Shown one piece after another: positions 35,782-62,327 of a stretch of DNA of 64,000 nt (position 1 is the stretch's first letter; every line of letters begins with the position of its first letter). A model generated the notes under the pieces. That model searched no databases and had not been told where the DNA came from. It saw only the letters and a list, made by a program, of their open reading frames with translations. Made by a program: the position numbers and the translations under genes. Source of the DNA: Edaphobacter lichenicola (GTDB lineage Bacteria > Acidobacteriota > Terriglobia > Terriglobales > Acidobacteriaceae); assembly GCF_014201315.1 (NCBI RefSeq), contig NZ_JACHDY010000002.1, positions 992,001 through 1,056,000 of the forward strand. The letters run 5' to 3'.

Positions 35782-35960
35782 CCCACTGCGCGTGGGGCGG
35801 TCACTTCGTGACGTGTATACCCCTTCGGTGGGCCCTCCCGTTGGTCGGGAGAGAGATGATCGTTCCGACCAACGGGAGGACCTTTGCCGCTCTTTCCGCC
35901 AAGACCGGTATACAAGTCACGAAGTGACCGCCCTCCGCGCAGGAGGCCCGTCCGGCAGGA
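35782..35960. repeat. Nested palindromic repeat element, copy 1
   Basis: This 179-bp palindromic element starts 4 bp after the DUF1338 stop. The right end carries the outer arm complementary to tcctgccggacggg; the left outer 13 bases are missing, probably lost at the gene end. Inside are ctgcgcg arms, a gtcacttcgtgac mini-hairpin near each end (same type on both sides) with gtatac next to it, and a central stem ctcccgttggtcgg/ccgaccaacgggag at about 35834-35878. It matches two copies near 61.0 and 62.2 kb. Peptides read from it are not real proteins. Confidence 0.9.
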
Positions 35961-35985
35961 CACGATCCTCGTATAGTTAAACCCT

Positions 35986-38943
35986 ATGTCCACCTCCCCC
36001 TTCGTCGTTCTGCCAAGCTCTCACGCCCGCGCACACGACACCTTCCCCGACGCCGTCGAACTAGCCCAGCTCCTCCAGGAACAAATTCGCGGCGAAGTCC
36101 GCTTCGACCCCGCCTCCAAAGCCCTCTACTCCACCGACGCCTCCAACTACCGCCATATCCCTATCGGCGTCGTCATTCCCCGCGACGAAGCCGACGTCAT
36201 CGCCACCGTCACACTCTGTCGCCGCTTCAACGCGCCCATCCTCACCCGTGGAGGTGGCACCTCACTCGCAGGCCAGGGCTGCAACGCTGCCGTCATCCTC
36301 GACTTCTCGAAATACATGAACGGCATGGGCGAGATCGACGTGCAAAATCGCACAGTCAAAGTCCAGCCCGGCATCGTCCTCGATCGCGTCCGCGACGCCG
36401 CCGAAAAACTTCACCTCACCTTCGCCCCCGACCCCGCGACCCACAGCCGCTGCACCATCGGCGGCATGATCGGCAACAACTCCTGCGGCGTCCACGGCCT
36501 CATGGGCGGCAAGACCGTCGACAACATCGCCACCCTCGACCTCCTCCTCTACGACGGCACCCGCCTCACCGTAGGCCCCACCACCGAATCCGAACTTACC
36601 GCCAACATCGCAGCCGGAGGCCGCACCGGCGAGATCTACGCGACCCTGAAATCCCTTCGCGACACCTACTCCGCGCAGGTCCGTGAAAGATTCCCCAACA
36701 TCCCCCGCCGAGTCTCCGGCTTCAACCTCGACGAGCTTCTCCCCGAAAACTCCTTCAACGTAGCCCGAGCCCTGGTCGGCAGCGAAGGCACCTGCGCCAT
36801 CATCCTCGGAGCCACACTCCAGCTCGTCCAGTCCCCACCCTGCCGCACTCTCGTCGGCGTCGGCTTCCCCGACATCTTCCTCGCCGCCGACCACGTCCCC
36901 CAGATCCTCGAGCACAAACCCATCGGCTTCGAAGGCATGGACGGTCTCCTCCTCGACGCCATGCGCCGCAAGCAGAAGTTCGCCGAAGAGCTCACGCTCC
37001 TCCCCGATGGCAACGGCTTCCTCATCATCGAATTCGGCGCAGACACCCAACCCGAGGCCAACGCCAAAGCCCGCGCCCTAGCCGCCTACCTCAAAACCCT
37101 ACCCGCCGAACCAACCACCCGCATCTACACCTCCGCCGAGGCCAAAAGCGTCTGGCGCATCCGCGAGTCCGCCCTCGGCGCCACCGCTTTCATCCCCGGC
37201 GTCGGCACCGGCTGGGAGGGATGGGAGGACGCCGCCGTCGACCCCACCCAGCTCGGCAGCTATCTCCGCGCCATCTTCGCCCTCATGAACGAGTACGGCT
37301 ACCGCAGCCCCATGTACGGCCACTTCGGCCAGGGTTGCGTCCACATGCGCCACAACTTCGACCTCCAAAGCGAAGCAGGCATCCTCAAATTCCGCCAGTT
37401 CATGGATCGCGCCACCGACATCGCCCTCGCCCACGGCGGCTCTCTCTCCGGCGAACACGGCGACGGTCAGGCCCGCGGCGCGCTCCTCCCCAAGATGTTC
37501 GGCGAAGAGTTGATGCACGCCTTCCGCACCTTCAAGCGCCTCTTCGATCCCACCAACCGCATGAACCCCAACAAGCTCATTGACGCCCACGAGCCGCATG
37601 AAGACCTCCGCCTCGGCGCCGACTACAACCCCTGGCACCCCAAGACTCACTTCGCCTACGCCGAAAACAACGGCAGCTTCGCCGACGCCAACCTCCGCTG
37701 CGTTGGCGTAGGAGCCTGCCGCAAGACCGACGCCGGCACCATGTGTCCCAGCTTCATGGCCACCGGCGAAGAGCTTCACTCCACCCGCGGCCGCGCCCAT
37801 CTGCTCTGGGAGCTGATGCAGGGCGAAGTCCTCCCCGACCAGTGGCGCAATAAACAAGTCAAAGAGTCCCTCGACCTCTGCCTCGCCTGCAAAGCCTGTA
37901 AGTCCGAGTGTCCCGTCTCGGTCGACATGGCCACCTACAAGTCCGAGTTCCTCGCCCACCACTACGAAGGAGAGTCCCGCCCGCTCTCGCACTACGCGTT
38001 CGGCCGCATCGACGTCTTCGCCCGCCTCGCCTCCTACGCGCCGCACCTCGTCAACGCCATCAACCACACGCCCCTCATCAGCTCCATCATGAAGAAGCTC
38101 CTCCACATCCACCCGCAGCGCACCTTCCCCCGCTTCTCCAAACCCTTTACCCCCGACCGCCGTCTCGCCCGCGACCCTCAACGTCGCCGCGACCGCCGCA
38201 TCCCGCTGCCCGCCGACGCTCCCGAAGTCTTCCTCTGGGCCGACACCTTCAACAACTACTTCCACCCCGCCGCCATGCGCGCCGCCCACCAGGTCCTCAC
38301 CACCGCCGGCTTCCGCGTCACACTACCAACGCAACACCTCTGCTGCGGCCGCCCCCTCTACGATTTCGGCATGCTCTCTACCGCCAAAGATTATCTCCTC
38401 AAAACCCTCAACGCCCTCACCCCGCAACTGCTGGCCGGCACCCCTATCGTCGTGCTCGAACCCTCCTGCGCCTCCGTCTTCCGCGACGAGCTCACCAACC
38501 TCCTGCCCTACGATCCCCGCGCGCAAAAACTCCACGACCAGACCTTCCTCCTCAGCGAGTTCCTCGTCAAACACGCGCCCAACTACCGCCCGCCGCAACT
38601 TGACGAGAAGATCCTCGTCCACGGCCACTGCCACCACCGCGCCACCATGGGCATGCACGACGAGCTCGCCCTCCTCCGCCTAACCGGTGCCGACGTCGAG
38701 CTCCTCGACTCCGGCTGCTGCGGCATGGCCGGTCCCTTCGGCTTCGAAAAAGACAAGTACACGGTCTCGCAGACCCTCGCCAACCGAGTCCTCCTCCCAG
38801 CAGTCCGCAACAAAGCCGCCAGCACCATCCTCGTGACCGACGGCTTCAGCTGCGCCGAACAGATCACTCAGAACACCAAAGCCAAACCCATGCACCTCGC
38901 CGAAGTCCTCGCCCTGCGCCAGAGTACCGATCCTCTTTCATAG
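35986..38943 (+). CDS. FAD-linked oxidase fused to Fe-S and CCG domains (YdiJ/D-2-hydroxyglutarate dehydrogenase-like)
   Basis: The 985-residue protein has four parts. The FAD-binding PCMH domain is at about 55-220 (ILTRGGGTSLAGQG, TIGGMIGNNSCGVHG). The FAD-oxidase C domain is at about 290-550 (GSLSGEHGDGQARG). A ferredoxin-type module carries Cys groups at 572-584 (CVGVGACRKTDAGTMCP) and 632-643 (CLACKACKSECP). Two CCG domains have Cys-Cys-Gly at 786-788 and 911-913. This is the layout of membrane-associated 2-hydroxyacid dehydrogenases such as E. coli YdiJ and GlcD-GlcF fusions, which pass electrons to quinone. The neighbouring DUF1338 gene suggests D-2-hydroxyglutarate as substrate; D-lactate or glycolate remain possible. 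Confidence 0.9.
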   Translation: MSTSPFVVLPSSHARAHDTFPDAVELAQLLQEQIRGEVRFDPASKALYSTDASNYRHIPIGVVIPRDEADVIATVTLCRRFNAPILTRGGGTSLAGQGCNAAVILDFSKYMNGMGEIDVQNRTVKVQPGIVLDRVRDAAEKLHLTFAPDPATHSRCTIGGMIGNNSCGVHGLMGGKTVDNIATLDLLLYDGTRLTVGPTTESELTANIAAGGRTGEIYATLKSLRDTYSAQVRERFPNIPRRVSGFNLDELLPENSFNVARALVGSEGTCAIILGATLQLVQSPPCRTLVGVGFPDIFLAADHVPQILEHKPIGFEGMDGLLLDAMRRKQKFAEELTLLPDGNGFLIIEFGADTQPEANAKARALAAYLKTLPAEPTTRIYTSAEAKSVWRIRESALGATAFIPGVGTGWEGWEDAAVDPTQLGSYLRAIFALMNEYGYRSPMYGHFGQGCVHMRHNFDLQSEAGILKFRQFMDRATDIALAHGGSLSGEHGDGQARGALLPKMFGEELMHAFRTFKRLFDPTNRMNPNKLIDAHEPHEDLRLGADYNPWHPKTHFAYAENNGSFADANLRCVGVGACRKTDAGTMCPSFMATGEELHSTRGRAHLLWELMQGEVLPDQWRNKQVKESLDLCLACKACKSECPVSVDMATYKSEFLAHHYEGESRPLSHYAFGRIDVFARLASYAPHLVNAINHTPLISSIMKKLLHIHPQRTFPRFSKPFTPDRRLARDPQRRRDRRIPLPADAPEVFLWADTFNNYFHPAAMRAAHQVLTTAGFRVTLPTQHLCCGRPLYDFGMLSTAKDYLLKTLNALTPQLLAGTPIVVLEPSCASVFRDELTNLLPYDPRAQKLHDQTFLLSEFLVKHAPNYRPPQLDEKILVHGHCHHRATMGMHDELALLRLTGADVELLDSGCCGMAGPFGFEKDKYTVSQTLANRVLLPAVRNKAASTILVTDGFSCAEQITQNTKAKPMHLAEVLALRQSTDPLS

Positions 38944-39026
38944 ACAGAAGTAGACAGAAGCGGTTCACGCCTCGGCTGGTCGCCGGGGCCGCCGTGCGCA
39001 GCAGCACGAGTTGCATCCGCAAGTAG

Positions 39027-40040
39027 TTAGATCGCTGTCCGAGCGGGAGAGAGATTCTTTCGCTTCAGCAGAAGCATCGGATGCTCGATAAACTCCCAGC
39101 TCAGCCATCCCAGGCCAATCGAGATCAGAGTGGCAGCCAGAAAGGTCACCCACGGAGATCCGCGGTGATACCAGATCCAGAGAGCTTCGATCGGGTAGCC
39201 ATAGAGATAGACCCCATACGATATATCCGGGAAGGTCGGTACCCGCAGCGGAAGCTGCACCAGATAAAACATCAGATATCCGCCGAATACGACGATGGCC
39301 CCTTCCGTATCGTGCGGAAAAAGCATGATGAGGACTGGACCGGCAACCGCCGCGATGGCCGCGAAGAGGGGTCGGAACACAATGCGATCGCGGAACAGGT
39401 AAAAGCACGCCCCAACAGAAAATACCGCCGTGAGCCGTACCGCCGAGATCAGGTCATTGTGATGATGGAAGTAAGGATGAAAGAGGTCGCCAACCAAGGC
39501 GAGGCTCACCGCCAGGCACAGCGGGCGCACACGAAACAGGCCGAGCCACCCGAAGAGCAGAACTAACAGATAACACCCAAACTCGTAGGTGATCGTCCAC
39601 AGCGAGCCGTTCACCGTATTCAAAGGACACCCAGGGAATACGATCGGCGTCACCGGTGCCCCGAGCAGCAGGACACTCACGGCGTATCGAGATCCAAGTT
39701 TCCGAAAGAATCCCTCGACCCCCGGCGCAAGTAAGCCGACCACAAGGGTACTCAGCAAGACCGCCACCAGATAGCCAGGAACAATCCTCAGTACGCGCTT
39801 CGTAAGATAGTCGATCGGCTTCGGGTTTTTCTCCCAGCTCTTCACAATCAGGAAGCCGCTCAGGAGAAAGAATCCGTCGACCCCTATCGATCCGAAGGTC
39901 ATGTGGGTCAGCCTCGCCCCTATCTCGCGAGAGTAGTTCCCGTCAGTAATCTCAGCGGCGTGCGAGAGCAACACCAGAACTGCAAAGGCAAGGCGAAGTA
40001 AATCGAGCGTGTGATTTCTTCGCTCCCTGTTTTTTTCCAT
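39027..40040 (-). CDS. Acyltransferase 3 family (OafA/YrhL-like) membrane protein
   Basis: The 337-residue protein has about ten transmembrane segments and begins NHTLDLLRLAFAVLVLLSHA, the acyltransferase 3 signature with the conserved Arg and His. GSIGVDGFFLLSGFLI follows. Such proteins move acetyl or other acyl groups onto surface sugars, lipids or macrolides. I chose the ATG at 40040 because GGAAAGTGG lies just upstream and the next residues start the domain; the frame is open to 40148. It stands alone. The acceptor is unknown. Confidence 0.88.
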   Translation of the reverse strand: MEKNRERRNHTLDLLRLAFAVLVLLSHAAEITDGNYSREIGARLTHMTFGSIGVDGFFLLSGFLIVKSWEKNPKPIDYLTKRVLRIVPGYLVAVLLSTLVVGLLAPGVEGFFRKLGSRYAVSVLLLGAPVTPIVFPGCPLNTVNGSLWTITYEFGCYLLVLLFGWLGLFRVRPLCLAVSLALVGDLFHPYFHHHNDLISAVRLTAVFSVGACFYLFRDRIVFRPLFAAIAAVAGPVLIMLFPHDTEGAIVVFGGYLMFYLVQLPLRVPTFPDISYGVYLYGYPIEALWIWYHRGSPWVTFLAATLISIGLGWLSWEFIEHPMLLLKRKNLSPARTAI

Positions 40041-40328
40041 AACCACTTTCCAACATCCAATTTTTGGCCGAGCACCAATGTCATCTTTGAGGTTACAGGA
40101 ATGCTCTCCCCAACATTTCTCTGACAGGAACTTCTGACTCATAGTCAAATGCGCGGGGCCGACCGAAGCTGCCTGTGCCGCTTGGTGAGCATTCGCAATT
40201 GAACTCCCCCGGCTTCAAGCCTGTCTTTCTTTGCGGCTGCCCGCGAGGTCAGACTGTTCTCTGTTCTTGACTCGTAACGATCTCCTTTCCATCCTTGTTC
40301 CAAAAGCAATTTGCTACCCTAGTCCACA

Positions 40329-40998
40329 ATGAATCTCGACGAGGTCCCAACCGTGATCGATGTACATCCTCCCCATGAACCCATTCATGGCTGGCGAGAC
40401 TTTCTGCTTCATCTCTTGACCATCACCATCGGCCTCCCTCATCGCCCTCAGCCTCGAAGGCTGCGTCGAGTGGCAACATCACCGCCACCTCGTCCACGAG
40501 GCCGAAGCCAGCCTCCACGCCGAGATCGAAAGCAACGCCAGTGGCCTGCAGGATATCCTCGACGACGTTCACAAGCAGCAGGCGAATCTAAAAAACGATG
40601 TCGAGGTGCTTGACGACATCATCAAAGACCCAAAGTTGCATCAACACAAGAGCATGTCCGTCGCCTTCCACTTCAATAAGTTCGACGACGTTAGCTGGAA
40701 GACCGCGCAATCCACCGGCGCACTCTCCTACATGTCCTACGACACGGCCGAGAAGTACGCCAGTATCTACTCGCTGCAGGAGGAACTGGAAAAAGCACAA
40801 CTGCAGGGAACTCGAGACGCAATCACCAGCATCGGTCCCATCCTGAATGTGCCTGACAAAGCAGATCCCACCGCGAGCGAGGCTCAATCCATGAAAGAAC
40901 ACCTCGAAGTCGTTCAGGGCCAATTGATTCTTATCGAGAGTCTCGTCAAAGGCCTCGATGCCGAATACAAAAAGTTCCTCGCGGCCCACCTCGACTAA
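40329..40998 (+). pseudogene. Frameshifted small membrane protein of an acidobacterial family
   Basis: Two overlapping frames join into one 222-residue protein if one C is removed from the ccc at 40436-40438 (ggcctccctc). The first part is MNLDEVPTVIDVHPPHEP then a hydrophobic segment TITIGL. The second continues LIALSLEGCVEW, then HHRHLVHEAEASLHAEI and a helical C-terminal part ending AAHLD. A short cytoplasmic N-terminus, one membrane helix and a helical external domain with HRHLVHEAE fit a family I have seen in acidobacterial genomes, of unknown function. It lies 45 bp before the padR gene. The frameshift could be real or a sequencing error. Confidence 0.75.
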
Positions 40999-41043
40999 AC
41001 AGATCCTTTGTAATACCTCGAACCACAAGGTAATGTATCTTTC

Positions 41044-41400
41044 ATGGCGTCCCGAGCGACCAATCCGAACTTTATGAATGGAGTTCCGGAGCTCCTCATC
41101 CTCAGACTCCTCCAGCACGAGGAGATGTATGGCTATGAAATCGTCGAGGCAATCCGCAGCCGCACCGGCGCAGTCATCGCAGTCGGCGAAGGCGTCGTCT
41201 ACCCGGTGCTCCACGGACTCGAACGCGACGGAGCGCTCAAGTCCCGGCGCAAGACCGTCAACCGCCGCAGCCGTATCTATTACTCCGTAACGCCCGTCGG
41301 AACGAATCGGTTAGCCAATCTCTCGAAGACCTGGACCAACCTGGCCACCGCAATCCAAACCATGCTGACAGGAGGGCACCATGGCCACGCCATTCTATGA
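41044..41400 (+). CDS. PadR family transcriptional regulator
   Basis: The 118-residue winged-helix protein has the PadR hallmarks ELLILRLLQHEEMYGYEIVE, GEGVVYPVLHGLERDGAL and SRIYYSVT. Its stop lies 20 bp inside the following HAAS gene, which has its own AGGAGGG. PadR proteins next to HAAS-domain membrane proteins usually repress their own operon in response to membrane stress or small molecules. No operator was identified. Confidence 0.93.
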   Translation: MASRATNPNFMNGVPELLILRLLQHEEMYGYEIVEAIRSRTGAVIAVGEGVVYPVLHGLERDGALKSRRKTVNRRSRIYYSVTPVGTNRLANLSKTWTNLATAIQTMLTGGHHGHAIL

Positions 41401-42094
41401 ACTTCGCGAACGCCTGCTTCAGGCTGGCGTAGCGCCGCGGTATGTGACGCGTTATCTGCGCGAACTGGCCGATCACCTGGCCGACCTCACAGCGGAAGAA
41501 GAACGCGCAGGCCGCAGCCCAACAGAGGCGAAGTCCGCGGCGCTCCTCCGGCTCGGGGCAACCGACGATCTCGCCAAGGCGATGACAGCCCAGCGTCAAC
41601 TCCAAGCCTGGAGCGTCAGGGCGCCGTGGGCCATCTTTTGCCTCGCCCCGCTCTCGCTCCTCGCAACGGCCTACTTCATTGCCTGTCTCATCTTGTGGTC
41701 TGGCTGGCGAATCTTCCTGCCGGGAATCGATACGCCCTTTGTCCGGATAGATGGTCTTGCGATTCTCTACTTCGGCATCGGCTGGTCGCTCTACGTCGCC
41801 GCGCCGACTCTCCTCGGTTGGGCAATCGGGCTAATCGCCGCCCGTCAAAGACTCAATCTGGTTTGGCCTACCATCGGCTGGATTCTGCTTGCGCTGATCG
41901 GGGGCACAGCCAAAGTCCACGCCCATCGTCCAAACCTCCCTGCCAAAGTCGGACATATCAGCATGAGTTTCACACTTGGACCTCTCCTCCAGGGAATTCC
42001 CGATGGCCTGTCTCAAGCCCTGCTGATCTTCTTGCTAACAGTCCTGCCCTATCTCCTTTGGCGATTCCAGCAGCGCCGCCGAATATCAACATAA
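41381..42094 (+). CDS. HAAS-domain integral membrane protein
   Basis: The 237-residue protein starts with a cytoplasmic helical domain of about 70 residues (FYELRERLLQAGVAPRYVTRY then LRELADHLADLTAEE), the HAAS/DUF1700-type signalling domain found beside PadR regulators. Four membrane helices follow (about 82-108, 125-150, 160-177, 205-228). AGGAGGG is centred 8 bases before the ATG. It overlaps padR by 20 bp, so the pair is translationally coupled. Function beyond partnership with PadR is unknown. Confidence 0.85.
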   Translation: MATPFYELRERLLQAGVAPRYVTRYLRELADHLADLTAEEERAGRSPTEAKSAALLRLGATDDLAKAMTAQRQLQAWSVRAPWAIFCLAPLSLLATAYFIACLILWSGWRIFLPGIDTPFVRIDGLAILYFGIGWSLYVAAPTLLGWAIGLIAARQRLNLVWPTIGWILLALIGGTAKVHAHRPNLPAKVGHISMSFTLGPLLQGIPDGLSQALLIFLLTVLPYLLWRFQQRRRIST

Positions 42095-42446
42095 TTTTTT
42101 TCCGGCAAAAATCCTGTCAACCCCCAAAACCGCGAAAACCCGCGCCAATCCAGCACATTCGCATGGCGTATCAGTTATCCTCCAACCGCTATACTGGTAA
42201 TAGAGAAGCAAATGAGGCCCCCGAGCAATCGGGGGCCTCTACCATTAACCCGTAACTGATTGATTTGTAATATTTTGCAGGCAAGTCACATGGAATCAAT
42301 ACTTTGCAGGCACATACCACCAGCAAATCAATGATTCCACGTAGTTTACTCCCAAAATACCCCTTGGGGGGGGAGGGGGGTACCCGCCCGGGAGAGCAAA
42401 TGAGCGACCAAGCTGTCAGTCACGAGAAACCCGCTACTCCACCGCT
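42095..42446. other. 352-bp noncoding region with hairpin, direct repeats and G tract
   Basis: Between the HAAS gene and the convergent biotin carrier gene there is a GC hairpin (42214-42239), a pair of 15-bp direct repeats with one mismatch (aatattttgcaggca at 42269-42283 and aatactttgcaggca at 42298-42312), a short inverted repeat (tggaatca at 42291 with tgattcca near 42332), and the G-rich run ggggggggagggggg at 42366-42380. The arrangement looks like a degenerate dispersed noncoding repeat. No gene is seen. Confidence 0.65.
42214..42239. terminator. GC-rich hairpin, likely terminator
   Basis: The perfect 10-bp stem gaggcccccg/cgggggcctc with loop agcaat lies 120 bp after the HAAS gene stop. 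It lacks a proper T tract on either side, so its terminator role is probable but not certain. Confidence 0.6.
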
Positions 42447-42935
42447 CTACTCGACCACGACCAGCACATCCCCGGAGCCGACCGCATCGCCCACCGCAAC
42501 CGCAATCCTCGCCACCCGTCCGGCCTTGGGCGACTTCAGCTCGTTCTGCATCTTCATCGCCTCGATCACGATCAGTGCCTGGCCCTCCTCGACCGCATCG
42601 CCCATCTCAACCAGCACCCGCACCATCCGGCCCGGCATAGGAGCCTTCACCGGACGCGGCCCATCCGTCCCAGCCCCCGCCCCCCGGCGCCCCTGCAGCG
42701 ACCGCGGATCCGCAACCTCAAACTCGAACCGCCGCCCACCAATCACCACCCCATCACCATCCAAAACACACCGGTACTGCCGCCCGTCAATCAATAACGA
42801 CAGCACTCCAGCCTGCAGCACCCTCACATCCGCCACAATCGGCCGCCCGTCCACCGAGCACTCCATCCCAACGCCGAACTCAGCCGGAAGCTCAACCCGC
42901 CGCTTCTCTCCCCCAACCTCAAGCCAGACCGTCAC
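42447..42935 (-). CDS. Biotin carboxyl carrier protein of an acyl-CoA carboxylase
   Basis: The 162-residue product ends in a biotinyl/lipoyl domain (about 85-162) with the biotinylation site Lys in IEAMKMQNE and KAPMPGRMV before it. The N-terminal half is a beta domain like the one in propionyl- or methylcrotonyl-CoA carboxylase alpha chains. The GTG start at 42935 shares GTGA with the stop of the biotin carboxylase gene and has GGGAGGGG upstream, so the two are translationally coupled. An ATG at 42971 in frame is less likely. No carboxyltransferase gene is nearby. Confidence 0.88.
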   Translation of the reverse strand: MTVWLEVGGEKRRVELPAEFGVGMECSVDGRPIVADVRVLQAGVLSLLIDGRQYRCVLDGDGVVIGGRRFEFEVADPRSLQGRRGAGAGTDGPRPVKAPMPGRMVRVLVEMGDAVEEGQALIVIEAMKMQNELKSPKAGRVARIAVAVGDAVGSGDVLVVVE

Positions 42936-44437: not shown

Positions 44438-44503
44438 GCGGCCATTCTACCGCAGACAACGATCGACACAGCGAGTCAAAACCGATACAGACCTGAACGC
44501 AAA

Positions 44504-44529
44504 GAGGCCTCCCGTTCTGGGGAGGCCTC
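44504..44529 (-). terminator. Terminator of the TPR lipoprotein gene
   Basis: A 10-bp stem gaggcctccc/gggaggcctc with loop gttctg lies 25 bp after the TPR gene stop. On the minus strand it is followed by TTTGCG, a weak T tract. It precedes the biotin carboxylase start by 67 bp. Confidence 0.7.
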
Positions 44530-44553
44530 CGGTATCACAACACTCCATGACAG

Positions 44554-51341: not shown

Positions 51342-51363
51342 TGGCCCCGCAATCTCTCGAAAT

Positions 51364-53421: not shown

Positions 53422-53580
53422 TCAAAACTCCGTTCAACAACTAAAATCTTCTCTGGCACTGGCCAGTCAAACTACAGCCAGACGCGCGCATCCGGACGCA
53501 ACTTCGCCAGTTGTGCAAAAAGTGTGCCTAGCCCCTAAGCATCGCGTAACCGCACCCCCATGTCAAGGCGCGGCCCCCGC

Positions 53581-53897: not shown

Positions 53898-53904
53898 CCA
53901 CAAT

Positions 53905-53940
53905 CTCCTCGCACTCCTCGCACTCCTCGCACTCCTCGCA
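53905..53940. repeat. Four perfect tandem copies of a 9-mer containing a Shine-Dalgarno core
   Basis: On the plus strand ctcctcgca occurs four times in a row; on the minus strand this reads tgcgaggag four times. Each unit contains gaggag. The last one ends 7 bases before the GTG start of the MmcQ/YjbR gene, so it is that gene's ribosome-binding site and the other three are upstream copies. Confidence 0.95.
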
Positions 53941-54091
53941 AAAAGCTCTCAACACTCTACGCCAATCGCCGCGAATCCAGCGTAACCTTCGCCACCAGTC
54001 GAATGCGAACCACCTATCTCATAAACTGTCTGCAATGTGTCGTCGAGTAATCGACCCGCAACCGTATGCAAGCAGGAAGGAAGCGCCGCTC

Positions 54092-54592
54092 ATGCCCATC
54101 CCCGAAGACCTCGCCGCCATCGCTCGCCAGGAGGCCGAACTCCGCTTCTCCGCCTTCGACTACGACACCGCCTGGCGTCTCGGCCAAAGCCTCCGCGAGC
54201 TGGCTGTCTCCCGCAACCAGTCCCTCGTCATCGACATCCGCCGCTTCGGCCAGCCTCACCAGCCGCTCTTCTACACCGCCCTCGCCGGCACCACCCCGGA
54301 CAACCCCCGCTGGGTGCAGCGCAAATCGAACGTAGTCGCCCGCTTCCACCGCAGCTCCTACGCCATCGGCCTCGCACTCGAGCAGAGCAGCCGCACCTTC
54401 AGCGAACGCTACAACCTCCCCGACGCCGACTTTGCCGCCCACGGCGGCAGCTTCCCCCTCCACGTCACCGTCGCAGGCGTCATCGGCTGCATCACCGTCT
54501 CCGGCCTGCCGCAGCGCGAAGACCACAATCTCGTCGTCGAAGCACTCTGCCTCGAACTCAAGCAGAACCACGACTCCCTGCGCCTCGCATAA
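54092..54592 (+). CDS. UPF0303/heme-degrading-domain family protein
   Basis: The 166-residue product resembles the UPF0303 family (GlcG/HbpS-like fold): AFDYDTAWRLGQSLRELAV, ALAGTTPDNPRWVQRKSNVV and the C-terminal GSFPLHVTVAGVIGCITVSGLPQREDH. Related proteins bind heme or small ligands; the function of this one is unknown. AGGAAGG lies 11 bases before the ATG. The frame is open upstream to 53783, but that part has no family similarity and crosses the divergent MmcQ/YjbR gene. Confidence 0.85.
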   Translation: MPIPEDLAAIARQEAELRFSAFDYDTAWRLGQSLRELAVSRNQSLVIDIRRFGQPHQPLFYTALAGTTPDNPRWVQRKSNVVARFHRSSYAIGLALEQSSRTFSERYNLPDADFAAHGGSFPLHVTVAGVIGCITVSGLPQREDHNLVVEALCLELKQNHDSLRLA

Positions 54593-54681
54593 CCGGACCA
54601 GCCACGCTGCAATGCTCCAACAGCTGCAATGCTCTAATAAAGTTTTGTCCGCAAAGCGGGCACCACGGGAGCATCGCAGCC

Positions 54682-56280
54682 ATGTCGGATCGGTCATACG
54701 CCATCACCCGAACACTCTCCTCCGTGTTCCTCATGGTGTGCCTTCTTCTCTTCGTCCTCCGAACCTGGCACTGGCCCCTCATGGGCGACGCCGCGCTCAT
54801 GCACTACGTCGTCTTCCTTATGGACCACGGCATGGCCCCCTATCGCGACATAGTCGATCCCAACATGCCGACGACGCTCCTGATCGAAGGCGCCGTCATG
54901 CACCTCTTCGGCGGCAACTCGCTCACCTGGCGACTCTTCGACCTCTCGCTCCTGGGCATCTCTGCAATCGCCATGTTCGTCATCTGCAAACCCTACAGCC
55001 GCTTCGCCGCACTCTTCGCTGCATCCCTCTTCGCCCTCATCCACGGCCGCGACGGCCTGGTCGAACTAGGTCAGCGCGATTTGACCATGACCGTCTGCCT
55101 CCTCATTGGCTACGCCTTCCTCTTCACCGGACTCAGAACCGATCCCGCAGCGCACCCCAAAAAAAATACAAAGTCCTGGATGATCGCCCTCTTCGGATTC
55201 TTCTGCGGCGTCGCAGCCACCATCAAGCCATCCGTCCTCTTCCTCGCACCAGCTGTCCTGCTCCTCGCAGCCATCGCCCTGCGACGCAAACAGCAACCAT
55301 TCGTCGCTCCCCTCATCGCCGGGCTTCTCGGCATGCTGGCGCCGATCCTGCTCATCCTCGCCTGGCTTCACCACCAACACATCACCGCCGACTTCCTCCG
55401 AACCCTCACCCAACTCCTCCCCTACTTCCTCCTACTGGGCCCCCGCTCTTACCCTCATCTCATCCTCCACAGCATCTCCTCCGTCATGCTCCCCGTCGTG
55501 CTGCTCTGGCTGCCCATCGTCGTCCTCAAAAAAGACTGGATTACCTGGGAGCGCGCCGCCCTCCTCGTCGCCGTTCTCTTCGGACTGGCGTCGTTCTATC
55601 TCCAAAGGAAGGGCTTTCCCTACCACCGCTACCCCTCCGAAGCCTTTCTTCTCCTCCTCCTCGCCATCGACTTCACCACCATCCTCGAAACCAAGCCAGC
55701 CCACTGGCGACTCCGTTTCACCACAAACGCCAAGCTCCTGCCCAGCCTCGCAATGGCCGGCATCGTAGTCGGCGTAGTCTTTGTCGCAGGCGGCTCCACC
55801 GCGCACGCCCTCTGGCAGGACTGGCGCAATCAGGAGTTCGACACCATGCTCCGCGCCGATCTCAACCGCCTGGGAGGCGAAAAACTAGCCAACCGAGTGC
55901 AATGTCTGGACATGGCCGACGGCTGCATACCCACGCTCTACAACATGCGCCTCGTGCAATCCACCGGCTACCTCTACGACTGCTACATGCTCTCCAACCA
56001 ACCCGGCGCCGAGCGGGACCGATCCCGCGAAGCCTTCTGGCAGGCCATCATGAAAAATCCCCCAGCCGTCTTCGTCGTATCAAGCAACGACTGCGACTCA
56101 GCCACCCAGCGCCCCGGCTACGCCTATCAAAAGATGAGCCGCTGGCCCCAATTCGACGACTACCTCAAAGCCAACTACCACCTCGACGCAGAACGAATCC
56201 CCCCACACATGGTCAACTCCGGCAGCAGCCCCTCGAAACCACTAGCCTACAGAATCTACGTAAGAAACAACCTCAACTAG
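54682..56280 (+). CDS. Polytopic membrane protein, probable GT-C (family 39-like) glycosyltransferase
   Basis: The 532-residue protein has about ten membrane helices. The first large loop contains GDAALMHYVVFLMDHG and APYRDIVDPNMP, which fits the Asp-containing loop of GT-C enzymes that use lipid-linked sugars (ArnT/PMT type). The C-terminal 130 residues are soluble, with cysteines in VQCLDMADGC, and include a TGYLYDCY segment. It would glycosylate envelope lipid or protein from the periplasmic face. Its end overlaps the tgt stop by 8 bases (convergent). The GT-C call is an inference from layout. Confidence 0.75.
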   Translation: MSDRSYAITRTLSSVFLMVCLLLFVLRTWHWPLMGDAALMHYVVFLMDHGMAPYRDIVDPNMPTTLLIEGAVMHLFGGNSLTWRLFDLSLLGISAIAMFVICKPYSRFAALFAASLFALIHGRDGLVELGQRDLTMTVCLLIGYAFLFTGLRTDPAAHPKKNTKSWMIALFGFFCGVAATIKPSVLFLAPAVLLLAAIALRRKQQPFVAPLIAGLLGMLAPILLILAWLHHQHITADFLRTLTQLLPYFLLLGPRSYPHLILHSISSVMLPVVLLWLPIVVLKKDWITWERAALLVAVLFGLASFYLQRKGFPYHRYPSEAFLLLLLAIDFTTILETKPAHWRLRFTTNAKLLPSLAMAGIVVGVVFVAGGSTAHALWQDWRNQEFDTMLRADLNRLGGEKLANRVQCLDMADGCIPTLYNMRLVQSTGYLYDCYMLSNQPGAERDRSREAFWQAIMKNPPAVFVVSSNDCDSATQRPGYAYQKMSRWPQFDDYLKANYHLDAERIPPHMVNSGSSPSKPLAYRIYVRNNLN

Positions 56281-57400
56281 CTTCGCCAACCCCAGCCAAG
56301 TCCCGCCGAACCCGCTCCATCGTATCCAGATAAAAAGCGATATTGTGCACGCTGTTCAGCACCGCACTCAGCGGCTCGCCCGAAGCAAACAGATGCCGCA
56401 GATAAGCCCGCGTATACCGCCGGCACACAATACACCCGCACGCGGGATCGATCGGCCCCTGATCCTCCGCATACTCCTTCTTCTTAATATTCAGCCTGCC
56501 CTCCGACGTAAACAGCAGCCCATGCCGCCCCGCCCGCGTCGGCAACACGCAGTCCATCATGTCCACACTCATCCGCGCGTACTCCTCAATCTCATCCGGA
56601 TACCCCACCCCCATCACATACCGCGGCTTATCCTTCGGCAGATGCTCCAGCGTCCGAGCGATCATCTCGCGCGTCACCTCTCTCGGCTCCCCCACCGCCA
56701 GCCCGCCAATCGCATACCCCGGCAGATCCATCTCCACCAGCCGCTCCGCCGACTCCTTCCGCAAATCCGCATACATTCCACCCTGCACAATCCCGAACAA
56801 GCTCTGCGTCTGCTCCTGTCTCTCCGAAAACCACGGCACCCGGTCCTTATGTAACTCAAAGTGATCTTTTGACCGCTGCGCCCACGCATGCGTCAGCCCC
56901 ATCGACTCCCGCGTCCGCTCCCACGTCGCTGGAGTCTCCACGCACTCATCGAAGACCATCGCAATATCCGCCCCCAGAGCAATCTGCACATCCATCGAGT
57001 GCTCCGGCGAAAAGAAGTGCTTGCTCCCATCCAGGTGCGACCGAAACTCCACCCCCTTCGGCGTAATCTTCCGCAGCTTGCTCAGGCTGAACACCTGAAA
57101 CCCGCCCGAGTCCGTCAGCATCGGCCGCTCCCAGCTCATAAACCGGTGAACCCCGCCCATCCGCCGCACCAGCTCATGCCCCGGCCGCAGATACAGATGG
57201 TAGGTATTCGCCAGGATGATCTGCGCCCCCTTCCCACCCGCGCCAACCTCCTCCAGCAGACTCTGCGGCACCGCCTTCACGCTCGCCGCCGTCCCCACCG
57301 GCATAAACACCGGCGTCTCGACCACGCCATGCGGCACCTTCAGCCGCCCCCTCCGCCCTCCACCCTCAGCGGTCCTATCTACCTCAAATGAAAATCCCAT
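56273..57400 (-). CDS. tgt: Queuine tRNA-ribosyltransferase
   Basis: The 375-residue TIM-barrel enzyme exchanges guanine 34 for preQ1 in tRNAs with GUN anticodons. Hallmarks are VETPVFMPVGT, the substrate Asp in MLTDSGGFQVFSL, the second catalytic Asp in PRYVMGVGYP and MDMMDCVLPTRAGRHG-type sequence, and the zinc site CGCIVC with a later His. The ATG at 57400 has CGGAGT upstream and starts the family's usual N-terminus; the frame is open to 57493. Confidence 0.97.
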   Translation of the reverse strand: MGFSFEVDRTAEGGGRRGRLKVPHGVVETPVFMPVGTAASVKAVPQSLLEEVGAGGKGAQIILANTYHLYLRPGHELVRRMGGVHRFMSWERPMLTDSGGFQVFSLSKLRKITPKGVEFRSHLDGSKHFFSPEHSMDVQIALGADIAMVFDECVETPATWERTRESMGLTHAWAQRSKDHFELHKDRVPWFSERQEQTQSLFGIVQGGMYADLRKESAERLVEMDLPGYAIGGLAVGEPREVTREMIARTLEHLPKDKPRYVMGVGYPDEIEEYARMSVDMMDCVLPTRAGRHGLLFTSEGRLNIKKKEYAEDQGPIDPACGCIVCRRYTRAYLRHLFASGEPLSAVLNSVHNIAFYLDTMERVRRDLAGVGEAS

Positions 57401-57577
57401 TACTCCGATTGTATGAGGGCAGGCCCGTTTCGCCTCCAACGACGCACCAACAGCCTCTTCGGAGCAGTCACACTCCATTAATTCATCTGGCATTCAACTT
57501 CAATTCACAAACCCAATCCCTTTCAGACCTAACAATAAGGAGCACCGCATCTCTACCAACTTTTGAGGCCTCAAAAA

Positions 57578-59299
57578 ATGATTCGGAAACTTCTCGCCCT
57601 CTCGTTGTCCACGACCCTTATCCTCAGCGGCTGCGGCCAGGGCACGGTCAGCACGCCTCCAGGCAACGGCAACGCCAACAACACCCCCCCGCCCACGCCA
57701 ACCACCGCCCAGGCGGCTATCAAGCACGTCGTCGTCATCTTCGGCGAGAACATCTCCTTTGATCACTACTTCGGCAGCTACCCCAACGCCGCGAACCTAC
57801 CCGGTGAGCCGAACTTCACCCCAGCGACCGCCGCCTCCGTAGCCGCCGCCACCCTTGCCGGCACCTTTACCCTCCCGGCGACCCCGACCAACACCACCAA
57901 CTACATCACTACCCCGTCCCTGCTCACCGCGAATCCCAACCTGACCAGCGCAAACGTCAACACCGCGCTCAACTCCGTCGGCGCAAACCCCTTCCGCCTC
58001 GCCCCCGCGCAGGCCGCCACGAACGACCAGGACCACGCCTACAACCCCGAACAGCTTGCCTTCGACAACGGCAAGATGGACCTGTTCCCCATCTCAGTTG
58101 GTGTCGCTAACCCCCTATCGCTGACTACCGCCACCAACGCCGCACCCCTCACCAACACCACGGCGCTCACCATGGGCTACTACGACGGCAACACCGTCAC
58201 GGCCCTGTGGAACTACGCGCAGCACTACGCCATGAACGATCACTCGTTCGGCACCACCTTCGGCCCCTCCACGCCCGGCGCCATCAATCTCGCCTCCGGC
58301 CAGACCAACGGCGTTATCAACCCCCTCAACGTCGCCTCCGCCATCGTCGCTGACGGCCAGGGTGGTTTCAGCGACATCAACGATGCCGATCCAACCGGCG
58401 ACATCTGCTCCTCCACCACCTCCAACTTCAGCATGTCGGGCAAGAACATCGGCGACCTGCTCAACGCCGCCGGCATCACCTGGGGTTTCTTTGAGGGCGG
58501 CTTCGACCTCACCGTTACCAACTCCAACGGAACCACCGGATGCGGTCGCAACACCGGCGCAGTCAATATCCCCGGCCACCCCACGAAGGCTGACTACATC
58601 CCCCACCACCAGCCCTTCCAGTACTACGCCAGCACCGCAAACCTCAACCACCTGCGTCCTACCGCCGCCATCGGAGCCACCGACCAGGCCAACCACCAGT
58701 ACGATATGCATGACTTCACCGACGCTCTCAAGGCTGGTGTCATGCCAGCCGTCAGCTTCCTCAAGGCCCCCGGCTACCAGGACGCGCACGCCGGCTACTC
58801 CGACCCACTCGACGAGCAGACCTTCGTCGTCAACACCATCAACGCCATCGAGAAGTCGTCCTTCTGGTCCTCCACCGCCATCATCATCGCCTACGATGAC
58901 TCTGACGGTTGGTACGATCACCTGACCGACCTCGTCAACGGCTCCGCCAGCGCCGCCGACGCGGCCGTCTGCACCGGCGCCGCGGCTGCCTCACTCCCCG
59001 GTCCCAACTCCAACGGCGCCCCCGTACAGGGACGCTGCGGACACGGCCCACGCATGCCGTTTCTGGTCATCTCCCCCTGGGCGAAGAAGAACTACGTCGA
59101 CAACACCCCCACCGACCAGGCCTCCATCCCCCGCTTCATCGAGGATGTCTTCCTGTCCAGCGCACGCATTGGCAGCGGGTCCTTCGATGCCTCCGCCGGC
59201 GCACTCACCGGTATGTTCAACTTCACCAGCACCGTCGCGCCGAACCCCAACGTAGTCGTGCTCGACCCCACCACCGGCAAGGTCACCAGCGGCAACTAA
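57578..59299 (+). CDS. Phosphoesterase family lipoprotein (phospholipase C/acid phosphatase-like)
   Basis: The 573-residue product starts with a lipoprotein signal with a perfect lipobox, LILSGC. A Pro/Thr/Asn-rich linker follows, then HVVVIFGENISFDHYFGSYPNA, the metal-binding start of the bacterial phospholipase C/AcpA phosphoesterase family. Later motifs are YDDSDGWYDHL and GRCGHGPRMPFLVISPWAKKNY. It hydrolyses phosphomonoesters or phospholipid head groups at the cell surface; the substrate is not visible. ATG 57578 is preferred over a TTG at 57563. It ends at an intrinsic terminator. Confidence 0.92.
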   Translation: MIRKLLALSLSTTLILSGCGQGTVSTPPGNGNANNTPPPTPTTAQAAIKHVVVIFGENISFDHYFGSYPNAANLPGEPNFTPATAASVAAATLAGTFTLPATPTNTTNYITTPSLLTANPNLTSANVNTALNSVGANPFRLAPAQAATNDQDHAYNPEQLAFDNGKMDLFPISVGVANPLSLTTATNAAPLTNTTALTMGYYDGNTVTALWNYAQHYAMNDHSFGTTFGPSTPGAINLASGQTNGVINPLNVASAIVADGQGGFSDINDADPTGDICSSTTSNFSMSGKNIGDLLNAAGITWGFFEGGFDLTVTNSNGTTGCGRNTGAVNIPGHPTKADYIPHHQPFQYYASTANLNHLRPTAAIGATDQANHQYDMHDFTDALKAGVMPAVSFLKAPGYQDAHAGYSDPLDEQTFVVNTINAIEKSSFWSSTAIIIAYDDSDGWYDHLTDLVNGSASAADAAVCTGAAAASLPGPNSNGAPVQGRCGHGPRMPFLVISPWAKKNYVDNTPTDQASIPRFIEDVFLSSARIGSGSFDASAGALTGMFNFTSTVAPNPNVVVLDPTTGKVTSGN

Positions 59300-59344
59300 C
59301 CGCAGGGTTCACAAAGCCTTCACATTTACTTTGTATTCTTAATC

Positions 59345-59382
59345 GCACGCACTCAGTCCTCCGGAGTGCGTGCTTTCTTTTT
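59345..59382 (+). terminator. Intrinsic terminator after the phosphoesterase gene
   Basis: A 10-bp perfect stem gcacgcactc/gagtgcgtgc with a 9-base loop is followed by tttcttttt. It ends the phosphoesterase transcript. A GTG at 59366 that could extend the next gene falls inside this hairpin. Confidence 0.93.
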
Positions 59383-59410
59383 ACACGCCGCATCTTCCGG
59401 AGCCCACCCG

Positions 59411-61015
59411 TTGTCTGATTCCAGCTCGTCCCGCCGACGCTTCCTGCAACAAACCGCCGCCCTCGGCCTCCTTTATAGCTACCGCCGCGGATTCAGCCAG
59501 ATGCAACCGATGGCAGCCATGCACCAAATCCCCAACGCTCCAGGCAAAAAAGTCCCTATGCTCCACGTTCTGGAGCTGCCACCCTTCGTCGACCCGCTGC
59601 CTCTCCCCGCCGCCCCCGCAGCACACACCGCCCCCCACAAACTCCGCATCGAGATGCGCGAGATCCACGCCAAGGTTCACCGCGACCTTCCTCCCACCCG
59701 CATGTGGAGCTACGGCCCCACCCCCCTGCCCCCCACCGTCGAAGCCCGCACCGGGCACCCCCTCCAAATCGAATGGGTTAACAACCTCCCCACCACCCAC
59801 TTCCTCCCCATCGATCACTCCCTTCACGGCTGCGGTCGCGACATTCCCGACGTCCGCTCTGTCGCCCACGTCCACGGAGCCAAGGTTCCAACCCAAGACG
59901 ACGGCTATCCAGAAGACTGGTTCGTCCCCGGCAAAAGCCGCATCTGCCACTATCCCAATCAGCAGGACGCCGCCGCCCTCTGGTATCACGACCACGCCAT
60001 GGGCCTCAACCGCCTCAACACCTACGCCGGACTCTTCGGCATGTATATCCTGCGAGACCAGGTAGAAGACGCCCTCCACCTCCCCTCCGGAAAGTACGAA
60101 GTGCCCCTCATCTTCTACGACCGCAACTTCACCACCGACGGCCAGCTCTTCTACGCCGACTCAGGCGATCCTGACCACCCCTGGATCCCCGAGTTCACCG
60201 CCGATGGCATCCTCATCAACGGCAAGATCCGTCCTTACTTCGAGGTCGAGCCTTGCCTCTACCGCTTCCGCACTCTCAACACCTCGAACAGCCGCTTCTT
60301 CCTTCTCTCTCTTTCGAACCAGCAGCCGCTCACCCAGATCGGCTCCGACCAGGGCCTGCTCTCGGCCCCAGTGGAGGTAAAAAGCGTCGTCCTGGCCCCA
60401 GCCGAGCGAGCCGATATCCTCATCGACTTCAGCCAATCCGCCGGCCAGACCCTCCACCTCCGTACCGGCGCTCTCGACATCCTCGAGTTCCGCATAGCCA
60501 GGCAGTCCTCCTCCCCCGCATCGATCTCCCTGCCCAAAACTCTTCGTCCCGTCGAACGCATCCCCGAATCCTCCGCCATCACAACCCGCACCATCACCCT
60601 CAACGAGTATCAGGACAAGATCGGCAACCCCATGGTCATGCTCCTGAACAACAAGCACTGGCACGAACCCATCACCGAGTTCCCCAGGCTCAATTCCACC
60701 GAGATCTGGGAGTTCGTCAATCAGACCGAAGACACCCACCCCATGCACATCCACCTCGTGCGCTTTCAGCTCCTCGACCGCCGCACCTTCGATCAGTTCG
60801 AACTCATGACCAATAAAAAGTTGCGTTTCCGCGGCCCCGTCGAGCCGCCCGCTCCCAACGAGATGTCCTGGAAGGACACCATCCAGTGCCCTGCCGGACA
60901 GGTGACTCGTGTCATTATTCGCTTCGAGGGCTATGCGGGGAAGTATCTCTACCACTGCCACATCCTCGAGCACGAGGCCAACGACATGATGCGTCCCTTC
61001 CAAGTCATCGCCTGA
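59411..61015 (+). CDS. Tat-exported multicopper oxidase (CotA/bilirubin oxidase-like)
   Basis: The 534-residue oxidase starts with a Tat signal (SSSSRRRFLQQTAALG). The copper ligand groups are in order: AHVHGAK, WYHDHAMG, HPMHIHLV and the C-terminal HCHILEHEANDMM, which supplies the type 1 and type 2/3 sites. The arrangement with YPEDWF and YHDHAMGLNRLN is that of CotA and bilirubin oxidases, which oxidise phenols or metals and reduce oxygen to water. I chose the TTG at 59411, with GGAG upstream, because the GTG at 59366 lies in a terminator hairpin. It is probably transcribed alone. Confidence 0.92.
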   Translation: MSDSSSSRRRFLQQTAALGLLYSYRRGFSQMQPMAAMHQIPNAPGKKVPMLHVLELPPFVDPLPLPAAPAAHTAPHKLRIEMREIHAKVHRDLPPTRMWSYGPTPLPPTVEARTGHPLQIEWVNNLPTTHFLPIDHSLHGCGRDIPDVRSVAHVHGAKVPTQDDGYPEDWFVPGKSRICHYPNQQDAAALWYHDHAMGLNRLNTYAGLFGMYILRDQVEDALHLPSGKYEVPLIFYDRNFTTDGQLFYADSGDPDHPWIPEFTADGILINGKIRPYFEVEPCLYRFRTLNTSNSRFFLLSLSNQQPLTQIGSDQGLLSAPVEVKSVVLAPAERADILIDFSQSAGQTLHLRTGALDILEFRIARQSSSPASISLPKTLRPVERIPESSAITTRTITLNEYQDKIGNPMVMLLNNKHWHEPITEFPRLNSTEIWEFVNQTEDTHPMHIHLVRFQLLDRRTFDQFELMTNKKLRFRGPVEPPAPNEMSWKDTIQCPAGQVTRVIIRFEGYAGKYLYHCHILEHEANDMMRPFQVIA

Positions 61016-61033
61016 CTTTTTTGAAAGATAGCG

Positions 61034-61210
61034 TCCTGCCGGACGGGCCCACTGCGCGTGGGGCGGCCACTTCGTGGCGTGTATACCGCTTCGCTTGGTG
61101 CTCCCGTTGGTCGCGAAGGAAGGATGATTCCGACCAACGGGAGGACCACGCGAAGCTCTAAAAAGGCGTGCGAACGCCCGCCCTCCGCGCAGGAGGCCCG
61201 TCCGGCAGGA
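61034..61210. repeat. Nested palindromic repeat element, copy 2
   Basis: This 177-bp element is bounded by tcctgccgga and tccggcagga, followed inward by gggccc(a)ctgcgcg and its partner. The left side arm has the mini-hairpin gccacttcgtggc with gtatac. The right side arm has gcgtgcgaacgc preceded by gcgaagctctaaaaa. The central stem is ctcccgttggtcg/cgaccaacgggag. The left flank ttgaaagatag (61021-61031) also precedes copy 3. It sits between the multicopper oxidase and the aldo/keto reductase. Confidence 0.92.
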
Positions 61211-61266
61211 CAACGTCTTTCCCCCGCGTCCAAATCGGAGTAACCTACCGACAAGGAGATCGCGCC

Positions 61267-62142
61267 ATGCTAAGGAGAGACTTCCTTCGCCGCTCGACCC
61301 GCACCGTAGGCGCCGCCCTTCTCGCCCGCTCCCCCATCGCTCGCGCCGCACTACTCGAACCCGATCCACTCCCCAGAAAATTCCAAGCCCAGGACGAGGT
61401 CGTCTTAGGCCACACCGGCATCCGCACTAGCCGCCTCGCCATGGGAACCGGCACCATCGGCTTCGGCGGCTCCTCCAACCAGACCCGTCTAGGCACCTCA
61501 CCGCTCACCAGGCTCCTCCTCGACGGCTACAACGACAACGGCCTCCGCTTCTTCGACTCCGCCGACTCCTATGGCAGTCATCCCTACGTCGCCAAAGCTC
61601 TCAAGCACATCCCCCGCGACAAAGTCACCGTCCTCACCAAAACCGACACACGCGACGCCGCCGGTGTCCGCGCCGACCTCGACCGCTATCGCAAAGAGCT
61701 GGGAGTCGACTACATCGACATCGTCCTGATCCACTGTGTCACCGAGGCCGACTGGACCACGCGCTATCGCGGCGTCATGGACGTCCTCTCCGAAGCCAAA
61801 CAGAAGGGCGTCATCCGCGCACATGGTGTCTCCTGTCACAGCCTTTCCGCGCTGAAAGCCGCAGCCGCCTCGCCGTGGGTCGAAGTCGATCTCGTCCGTC
61901 TCAACCCCATCGGCTCCCACATGGACGCCGACCCCGCCACTGTAATCAGCGTCATCAAGCAAATGCGCGCGCAGGGGAAGGGAATCGTCGGCATGAAGAT
62001 CCTCGGCCAGGGCGATCTCCGCGACAAGCCGGCCGAGGCCATCCGCTACGCCCTAAGCACAGGCGTTCTCGATGCCTTCACCATCGGCGCCGAATCGCAG
62101 AGAGAGCAAAACAACCTCATTCAGCGAGTAGCCGCAGCTTGA
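61267..62142 (+). CDS. Tat-exported aldo/keto reductase family protein
   Basis: The 291-residue product starts with a Tat signal (LRRDFLRRSTRTVGAALLA). An aldo/keto reductase barrel follows: SRLAMGTGTIGFGG, the active-site Asp and Tyr in FFDSADSYGSHPYV, Lys in VTVLTKTD, and the His in VLIHCVTEADW. Barrel strands to the end include GIVGMKILGQGDL. NADPH-dependent activity outside the cytoplasm would need cofactor loading before Tat export; several acidobacterial oxidoreductases follow this pattern. AAGGAG lies 8 bases before the ATG. It is bracketed by two palindromic elements, and its stop codon lies within the shared left flank of copy 3. Confidence 0.9.
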   Translation: MLRRDFLRRSTRTVGAALLARSPIARAALLEPDPLPRKFQAQDEVVLGHTGIRTSRLAMGTGTIGFGGSSNQTRLGTSPLTRLLLDGYNDNGLRFFDSADSYGSHPYVAKALKHIPRDKVTVLTKTDTRDAAGVRADLDRYRKELGVDYIDIVLIHCVTEADWTTRYRGVMDVLSEAKQKGVIRAHGVSCHSLSALKAAAASPWVEVDLVRLNPIGSHMDADPATVISVIKQMRAQGKGIVGMKILGQGDLRDKPAEAIRYALSTGVLDAFTIGAESQREQNNLIQRVAAA

Positions 62143-62150
62143 AAGATAGG

Positions 62151-62327
62151 TCCTGCCGGACGGGCCCACTGCGCGTGGGGCGGGCGTTCGCACGCCTCTT
62201 TAGAGCTTCGCGTGGTCCTCCCGTTGGTCGGAATCAATCTTCCCTCGCGACCAACGGGAGCGCCAACCGAAGGGGTATACAAGTCACGAAGTGACCGCCC
62301 TCCGCGCAGGAGGCCCGTCCGGCTGGA
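62151..62327. repeat. Nested palindromic repeat element, copy 3 (inverted relative to copy 2)
   Basis: This 177-bp element is bounded by tcctgccgga and tccggctgga. Its left side arm (gcgttcgcacgc, then ctctttagagcttcgcg) is the reverse complement of the right arm of copy 2. Its right arm (gtatacaagtcacgaagtgac) is the reverse complement of the left arm of copy 1. The central loop also reads as the reverse complement of copy 2. The same 11-bp flank ttgaaagatag precedes it (62139-62149). It lies between the convergent aldo/keto reductase and 62330 genes, 2 bp from the latter's stop codon. Confidence 0.92.

Follow-up and report, generated by a model that had tools for sequence, protein, structure and literature searches.

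What kind of element has left three nested palindromes of about 177 bp in one stretch of Edaphobacter lichenicola DNA (contig NZ_JACHDY010000002.1, positions 992,001 to 1,056,000; the whole 64,000-nt stretch that was analyzed is called the window)? An earlier note, made from the letters of this DNA, had suggested a mobile or functional element rather than simple terminators. We found that each palindrome is made of two inverted half-elements, each of them a row of some five small hairpins, and that the dimers belong to a high-copy repeat with fixed loops and covarying stems, which sits mostly just behind stop codons and is present at some sites and absent from the same sites in other species. 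On balance, we think it probable that this is a non-autonomous mobile DNA repeat resembling a REPIN (a doublet of repetitive extragenic palindromes, REPs) and acting via hairpins in single-stranded DNA. It may also affect the ends of genes in the way REPs do.

The three palindromes are called dimers 1, 2 and 3 (Table 1), and all are of the 177-bp type. None of the three departs by a single letter from the 13-mer core CTCCCGTTGGTCG or its complement, which confirms the common central stem that had been described, and the CTGCGCG inner arms and the two side hairpins were likewise found in each. Shared outer arms held for dimers 1 and 2, which are complete and 90% complementary to each other, but not for dimer 3, which begins TGA-AGTACCCACTGCGCG, lacks the left terminal hairpin (hp0) and outer arm, and keeps the arm on its right side alone. 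At up to 3 mismatches the arm motif occurred five times in the window, compared with 0.02 expected. When the dimers were folded as RNA, the z values against shuffles were −13.5, −8.1 and −10.2, and dimer 1, the sole dimer folded as DNA, gave −11.8. The cross-shaped structure proposed earlier was predicted for the first two dimers folded, whereas the third, with like arms, formed mostly one long stem.

In the genome from which the window comes (the home genome; other genomes and loci carry our own G and L numbers), there were 66 exact pairs of the form CTCCCGTTGGTCG-N8-30-CGACCAACGGGAG; the reversed control pattern gave 0, and base composition predicts about 1e-7. The outer arm with up to one mismatch gave 149 and 152 matches (reversed pattern, 1 and 6), and a model of the half-element gave at least 150 matches, those scored all with E ≤9.6e-11. 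These counts bear out a REP-like multi-copy repeat rather than a plain terminator, and the case that the earlier note had named as refuting its idea, under about five copies genome-wide and no conserved structure, clearly does not apply.

The exact core pair was found in 7 of 297 genomes drawn from the phylum, all 7 of the same genus; among the 15 sampled genomes of that genus, the home genome counted in, 7 had it and 8 did not. The half-element model matched 5 of 120 genomes of the family, three of the same genus (including the home genome) and, weakly, two of one other genus. G076 and G001, which have no exact core pair, nevertheless hold 9 and 3 halves by this model. G451, which belongs to another genus within the family, gave six weak matches (best E 5.7e-8), perhaps representing a diverged sister family of the repeat. 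Among the matches listed, which came from named records, the core pair occurred in Edaphobacter, Granulicella, Acidobacteriaceae TAA 166, bins assigned to Acidobacteriales and Terriglobus, and Elioraea; exact cores numbered 30 in G014, 4 in G141 and 32 in TAA 166. Rfam at its gathering score recognized nothing but a tRNA in the window, and no paper describing the repeat was found in the literature searched, including by motif letters, in agreement with the earlier note, which had recognized no named family.

The half-element is mostly 80–84 or 95–99 nt long, with a spacer of mostly 14–19 nt between the two halves of a dimer. Each half is made of hp0 (loop TGCC), hp1 (loop TGCGC), a side hairpin (either hpA, with loop TTC, or hpB), then another hairpin with a TTC loop, and the 13-nt core; an extra hairpin between hp1 and hpA is optional. 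Such an extra module, for example CCCCACAAACGAAGACCTGTTTGTGGGGACCCCGATTCG, was seen between hp1 and the side hairpin at L019, L023, L030 and L170 (at 2155), and by eye its stem also seems to covary. The stem of hp0 occurs as GTCC/GGAC, GGCC/GGCC or GCGC/GCGC, and that of hp1 as CCCAC/GTGGG, CCTCC/GGAGG, CGCCC/GGGCG and others. The high conservation claimed for the family applies to the loops and not to the stems, which vary.

Covariation was measured in 38 half-elements, hand-picked for diversity from 87 with the hpA side hairpin (A-type halves only). Across three stems, 96.2% of cells were paired compared with 81.5% in shuffles, and 66 cells were changed on both sides; shuffles gave 15.9 ± 3.1 such cells, and slid controls never more than 4. 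Around the core, the closing pairs −1/+1 and −2/+2 were paired in 394 and 331 of 410 cases (212 and 189 when shuffled), and the next four positions outward paired at chance, indicating two covarying closing pairs and no more. Side hairpins could be typed in 131 of 141 two-armed dimers (10 dropped), of which 70 were A/B against 51.6 expected, 61 were A/A and none was B/B. These 70 dimers carry unlike side hairpins that are unable to pair across the dimer; as the covariation shows, it is the local hairpins of each half that are preserved, and the cross is one possible fold of the dimer. The preference for unlike arms counts in favor of the REPIN-like reading, since most GTAG and CGTC REP families favor unlike partners in doublets, according to PMC3733652. 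Read in transcript sense, the stem mismatches comprised 14 G-U and 12 A-C; this lack of a G-U excess does not point to RNA, although the test is weak because the elements flip.

Genes were called with a home-made codon-usage caller, and 56 of the 65 distinct two-armed dimers of the home genome were classified by position (the other nine were at the edge of a locus, within a called frame or lacked a called neighbor; another 29 core pairs, counted without de-duplication, were excluded because an arm was missing or degenerate). Thirty-seven lay between tandem, 13 between convergent and six between divergent genes. Stop-facing sides were within 0–15 nt of the codon in 39 of 63 cases (median 8 nt), compared with 2 of 49 start-facing sides (median 111 nt), and a dimer usually started 5–10 nt behind the stop codon. 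The medians in a multi-genome set, whose copies are not independent and whose loci outside the home genome were mostly chosen by exact core and thus biased to well-kept dimers, were 9 nt on the stop side (n = 139) and 98 nt on the start side (n = 99); in tandem pairs of this set, 35 dimers were at most 15 nt from the stop and at least 50 nt from the start, and one showed the reverse. A degenerate AAAGA-nnn-T motif precedes the element on all kinds of sides, and a T-rich stretch about 5–9 nt outside the stem is common in the family. This position behind stop codons may reflect target preference, tolerance or function.

Single halves were picked by eye from the match list of the half-element model. 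Of 31 found in the home genome, 23 had called genes on both sides, and the core pointed toward a stop codon in 19 of these; in tandem pairs 17 cores faced the stop and 2 the start, with 15 versus 0 in a partly overlapping multi-genome set. Because single halves turn their core to the stop codon, the missing half would mostly be the stop-proximal one. At L169 (G000:C1:9000-19500) we observed five like-oriented outer arms in 9.3 kb, three of them scored as single halves, with genes in tandem.

When the same sites were compared between species, full, halved and empty states were all encountered. Site 1 holds a dimer in the home genome and G014 and a half in G002. Site 2 is occupied by a dimer in the home genome and by a single half in G014, and is empty in G002, with 15 nt between two stop codons. 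At site 3 a dimer lies directly behind a TGA in the home genome, G132 and G002, and no element was found between the two genes in G003, G141, G191 and G014 (other sequence is there in G191 and G014), the remaining genomes being too diverged or rearranged to call. In G003 (L325) the 105-nt intergenic region at site 3 contains a plain hairpin, formed by GCGACTCATTGCTC with its complement, in the place taken by the dimer in relatives.

At site 3 the dimers of the home genome and G002 have interiors that are unusual and alike but run in opposite order. Among 82 orthologous dimer pairs, which are not independent of one another, 47 had the same order, 17 were inverted and 18 were unclear, and 9 of the 37 sites with a clear pair held an apparently inverted one. 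In 3 of the 17 inverted pairs the orthologue ranked first or second in similarity among about 230 copies, a result in favor of in-place flipping; the other 14 may instead reflect replacement by another copy. In the pair L005 and L147 the hp1 types stay with the flanks and the interior is reversed; the rank, however, is 40. Flipping in place and loss of the stop-proximal half are supported but not proved.

These results can be drawn together as follows. When the DNA becomes single-stranded, as in replication, the hairpins of the two halves would form, and a candidate enzyme acting in trans would recognize their loops and copy or move the dimer. A dimer already in place apparently either loses the half next to the stop codon or flips between its arms. 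Since it sits where Escherichia coli REPs are reported to damp translation, it may by analogy affect expression, and loss of the stop-proximal half would fit a cost of that position. In its working the repeat would resemble a REPIN, in which hairpin units form an inverted doublet and spread without a gene of their own, while by two defining tests, the foot tetranucleotide and the link to a REP-associated tyrosine transposase (RAYT), it is not a REPIN.

Several results weigh against the REPIN-like reading. No mobilizing enzyme was found among the Y1_Tnp genes examined in the home genome and its relatives. These were 38 loci drawn from a longer gene list (3 home, 35 of relatives; L254 equals L282, leaving 37 distinct genes), taken with flanks of up to about 1.5 kb, shorter at contig ends; the arm, hpA or hpB motif was present at 0 of 38, and all 30 element loci used as a positive control scored. 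A lone core 13-mer with one mismatch lay about 1.6 kb from the Y1_Tnp gene of L251. Moreover, a Y1_Tnp gene above the cut-off was absent from the element-bearing G014, G141, TAA 166 and three Elioraea genomes. No clear target duplication was detected at the ends of 141 dimers (k of 3–9, offsets 0–2), the only departure from chance being a slight excess of 3-nt direct repeats at offset 1 (6 of 141 versus 1.95; largest of 300 shuffles, 7); 2-nt repeats numbered 19 against 16.6 expected, which leaves room for a 2-nt duplication. Insertion is therefore visible only as presence or absence between diverged species, and deletion could lie behind some of the empty sites. Counted by stem pairs with any two-sided change, covariation came to 7 against 5.7 when shuffled, and 127 of 500 shuffles reached 7. 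The orthologue ranked lower for inverted pairs (median 32 of about 230) than for same-order pairs (median 12), so some inverted pairs may be replacements by another copy. Finally, the precise spacing from the stop codon could be a host function.

This last point leads to an alternative that we regard as unlikely but not negligible, namely that the repeat is a 3ʹ-end RNA element recruited by the host, a bidirectional terminator or 3ʹ mRNA stabilizer behind stop codons that is selected on the transcript. The tight spacing of the stop-facing sides would suit it, as would the AAAGA anchored before the element, hence TCTTT after the stem, the fixed orientation of single halves to the upstream gene in tandem pairs, and the plain hairpin in place of the element in G003. 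In addition, hp0 of dimer 1 is one of two terminator-like sites, with the tail CTATCTTTCA. However, such sites occur at chance in 60900–62450 (2 versus 1.3 ± 1.3 shuffled), and the T-rich stretch begins some nucleotides past the stem. The lack of a G-U excess, with the weakness already stated, the six dimers between divergent genes, and the eight genomes of the genus without an exact core pair, even with the halves of G076 and G001, also speak against an RNA role.

A different explanation of the stems is that their covariation is a by-product of template switching during replication, which repairs imperfect hairpins, so that the structure is recognized by nothing. It would also account for the arm flips and for the similar numbers of G-U and A-C mismatches. 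We consider it improbable, as it leaves unexplained why fixed loops (TGCC, TGCGC, TTC and the 13-nt core) stand beside stems that turn over, and why the same 13-nt loop occurs in Elioraea, where the core was the search key.

That the repeat is a classical RAYT-mobilized REPIN or terminal inverted repeat (TIR) family, with one of the genome's Y1_Tnp genes as its transposase, we hold to be quite improbable. Inverted doublets, intergenic position, high copy number and the preference for heterodimers all agree with it. The home genome has three Y1_Tnp genes and G132, G191 and G364 two each, such genes being present in the element-rich G000, G132, G191 and G364, and Acidobacteria have a TIRYT group of their own (PMC3733652). 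Nevertheless, the link to a RAYT gene that the earlier note had thought worth looking for was not seen at the Y1_Tnp loci described above, element-bearing genomes exist without a Y1_Tnp gene above the cut-off, and the foot tetranucleotide is rare (GTAG/GTGG in 8 and CGTC in 14 of 282 halves, counted between −6 and +4 relative to where the arm begins). A miniature inverted-repeat transposable element, the deletion derivative of a DDE-transposase insertion sequence, is very improbable: long terminal inverted repeats, high copy number, intergenic position and the slight 3-nt excess one base outside the ends would fit, but the other 3–9 nt direct repeats are at chance, the internal hairpins covary as is not expected of a decaying remnant, 13 intervals of 330–4000 bp between outward arms (arms at ≤3 mismatches, some perhaps by chance, and at least one interval in an Elioraea record) held by eye host-type genes or no called gene and no transposase, and plasmids and phages gave no blastn match to dimer 1.

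The core also occurs outside the phylum. In three genomes of Elioraea (Alphaproteobacteria) the 13-mer pair is present in 12, 2 and 3 copies with entirely different outer arms, and every 13-mer forms the loop of a hairpin whose stem varies. Of the 24 hairpins in 12 distinct elements, of which one lies on a viral contig, 21 had six consecutive pairs (G-T allowed), and their sequences differed. A called stop codon abuts the outer hairpin in 3 of the 12, and four more look stop-adjacent by eye from the letters alone, the others not being so or not callable. Viral contigs gave no match to the two arm patterns; the one that holds the core pair is of the Elioraea type, and on this 37.9-kb IMG/VR contig (L168) the element lies near the start, at positions 96–133, behind an apparent TAG stop codon, where host flank and prophage are both possible. 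The Elioraea elements were rejected as full members of the family, as the half-element model gave them 12.7–18.2 bits (E 0.06–0.84) and the core alone is common to both.

The same 26-base exact pattern and layout in another phylum suggests either a shared recognizer or transfer, and chance identity of the Edaphobacter and Elioraea cores is unlikely because the logic of loop and stem is also common to both; since the core was the search key in Elioraea, its exactness there is partly by construction. As one and the same loop is surrounded by unrelated modular hairpin chains, which share the inverted-pair layout and lie at least in part behind stop codons, we advance with considerable reserve the idea that the core loop CTCCCGTTGGTCG is the address of a hairpin-recognizing enzyme serving two phyla, and that these elements form a single-strand mobile class apart from RAYT/REPINs. 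They would then be read by their loops, and not by their stems or a foot tetranucleotide.

The features of the three dimers are collected in Table 1. Dimers 1 and 2 lie on either side of one aldo/keto reductase gene (61034–62327), which gives the region the look of a composite element. This gene is probably not carried by the dimers, because G002 has it with a half on one side and nothing on the other.

Table 1. Repeat features in the window (window positions)
Feature	Position	Strand	Description
Dimer 1	61034–61210	.	Complete; left half 61033–61113 with hairpin A, right half 61131–61211 with hairpin B
Neighbors of dimer 1			Multicopper oxidase gene (stop 61015) and aldo/keto reductase gene (called start 61267)
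hp0	61033–61044	+	Terminal hairpin of half-element, GTCC-TGCC-GGAC; covariation helix 1
hp1	61048–61062	+	CCCAC-TGCGC-GTGGG, conserved loop, stem covaries; covariation helix 2
hpA	61066–61078	+	GCCAC-TTC-GTGGC; covariation helix 3
hpB	61165–61178	-	Alternative side hairpin, right half (GGCGT-GCGA-ACGCC on + strand)
Core of dimer 1	61101–61143	.	13-mer CTCCCGTTGGTCG, 17-nt spacer, 13-mer inverted
Dimer 2	62151–62327	.	Complete, inverted relative to dimer 1; convergent called stops 62142 and 62330 on its sides
Core of dimer 2	62218–62260	.	
Dimer 3	35782–35960	.	Left hp0/outer arm lost; 5 nt behind stop codon at 35777
Core of dimer 3	35835–35878	.	

REP-like repeats are widespread. In this one, the fixed loops and covarying stems say what a recognizing protein would have to read, one loop being identical in two phyla. 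If this is right, the repeat would provide a definite bait in the hunt for the enzyme, and its full, empty, halved and flipped sites a natural set with which the effects of stop-adjacent hairpins on expression could be tested.

Among known systems, the apparent in-place flip resembles the minute inversions of plastid DNA stem-loops, in which a non-coding segment between inverted repeats flips in place; here, in contrast, it would sit inside a dispersed bacterial repeat family. The TIRs of Acidobacteria TIRtrons share the phylum and are likewise long inverted repeats that can form families; in PMC3733652 they are described as flanking a tyrosine transposase gene, with some partly self-complementary and some sharing a GGGGWSAS motif, whereas the Edaphobacter repeats were not found beside such a gene, a distinction drawn by description only. 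REPs of E. coli at most 15 nt from a stop codon, for which ribosome stalling is reported in PMC12306157, are similar in position and in having a strong hairpin. The share so placed is also comparable, at 39 of 63 stop-facing sides here against 260 of 496 REPs in an earlier E. coli study cited there (446 of 4,072 in the wider REP set of that paper), but the Edaphobacter fold, predicted from sequence, is a chain of hairpins. The closest known kind is the REPIN, or bacterial interspersed mosaic element (BIME), doublet, with which the repeat shares short intergenic palindromes, occurrence as single units or inverted doublets, high copy number, unlike partners and a frequent position close behind stops. 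It differs in that its half is mostly 80–99 nt with about five hairpins, compared with a single REP of 21–65 nt (PMC6006769), and in its rare GTAG/CGTC foot, its absence from the RAYT loci examined, and its fixed loops with covarying stems; CGTC REPs too have no dedicated transposase known (PMC3733652). The Edaphobacter repeat is therefore a REP-like repeat without the REP hallmarks, undescribed in the literature searched.

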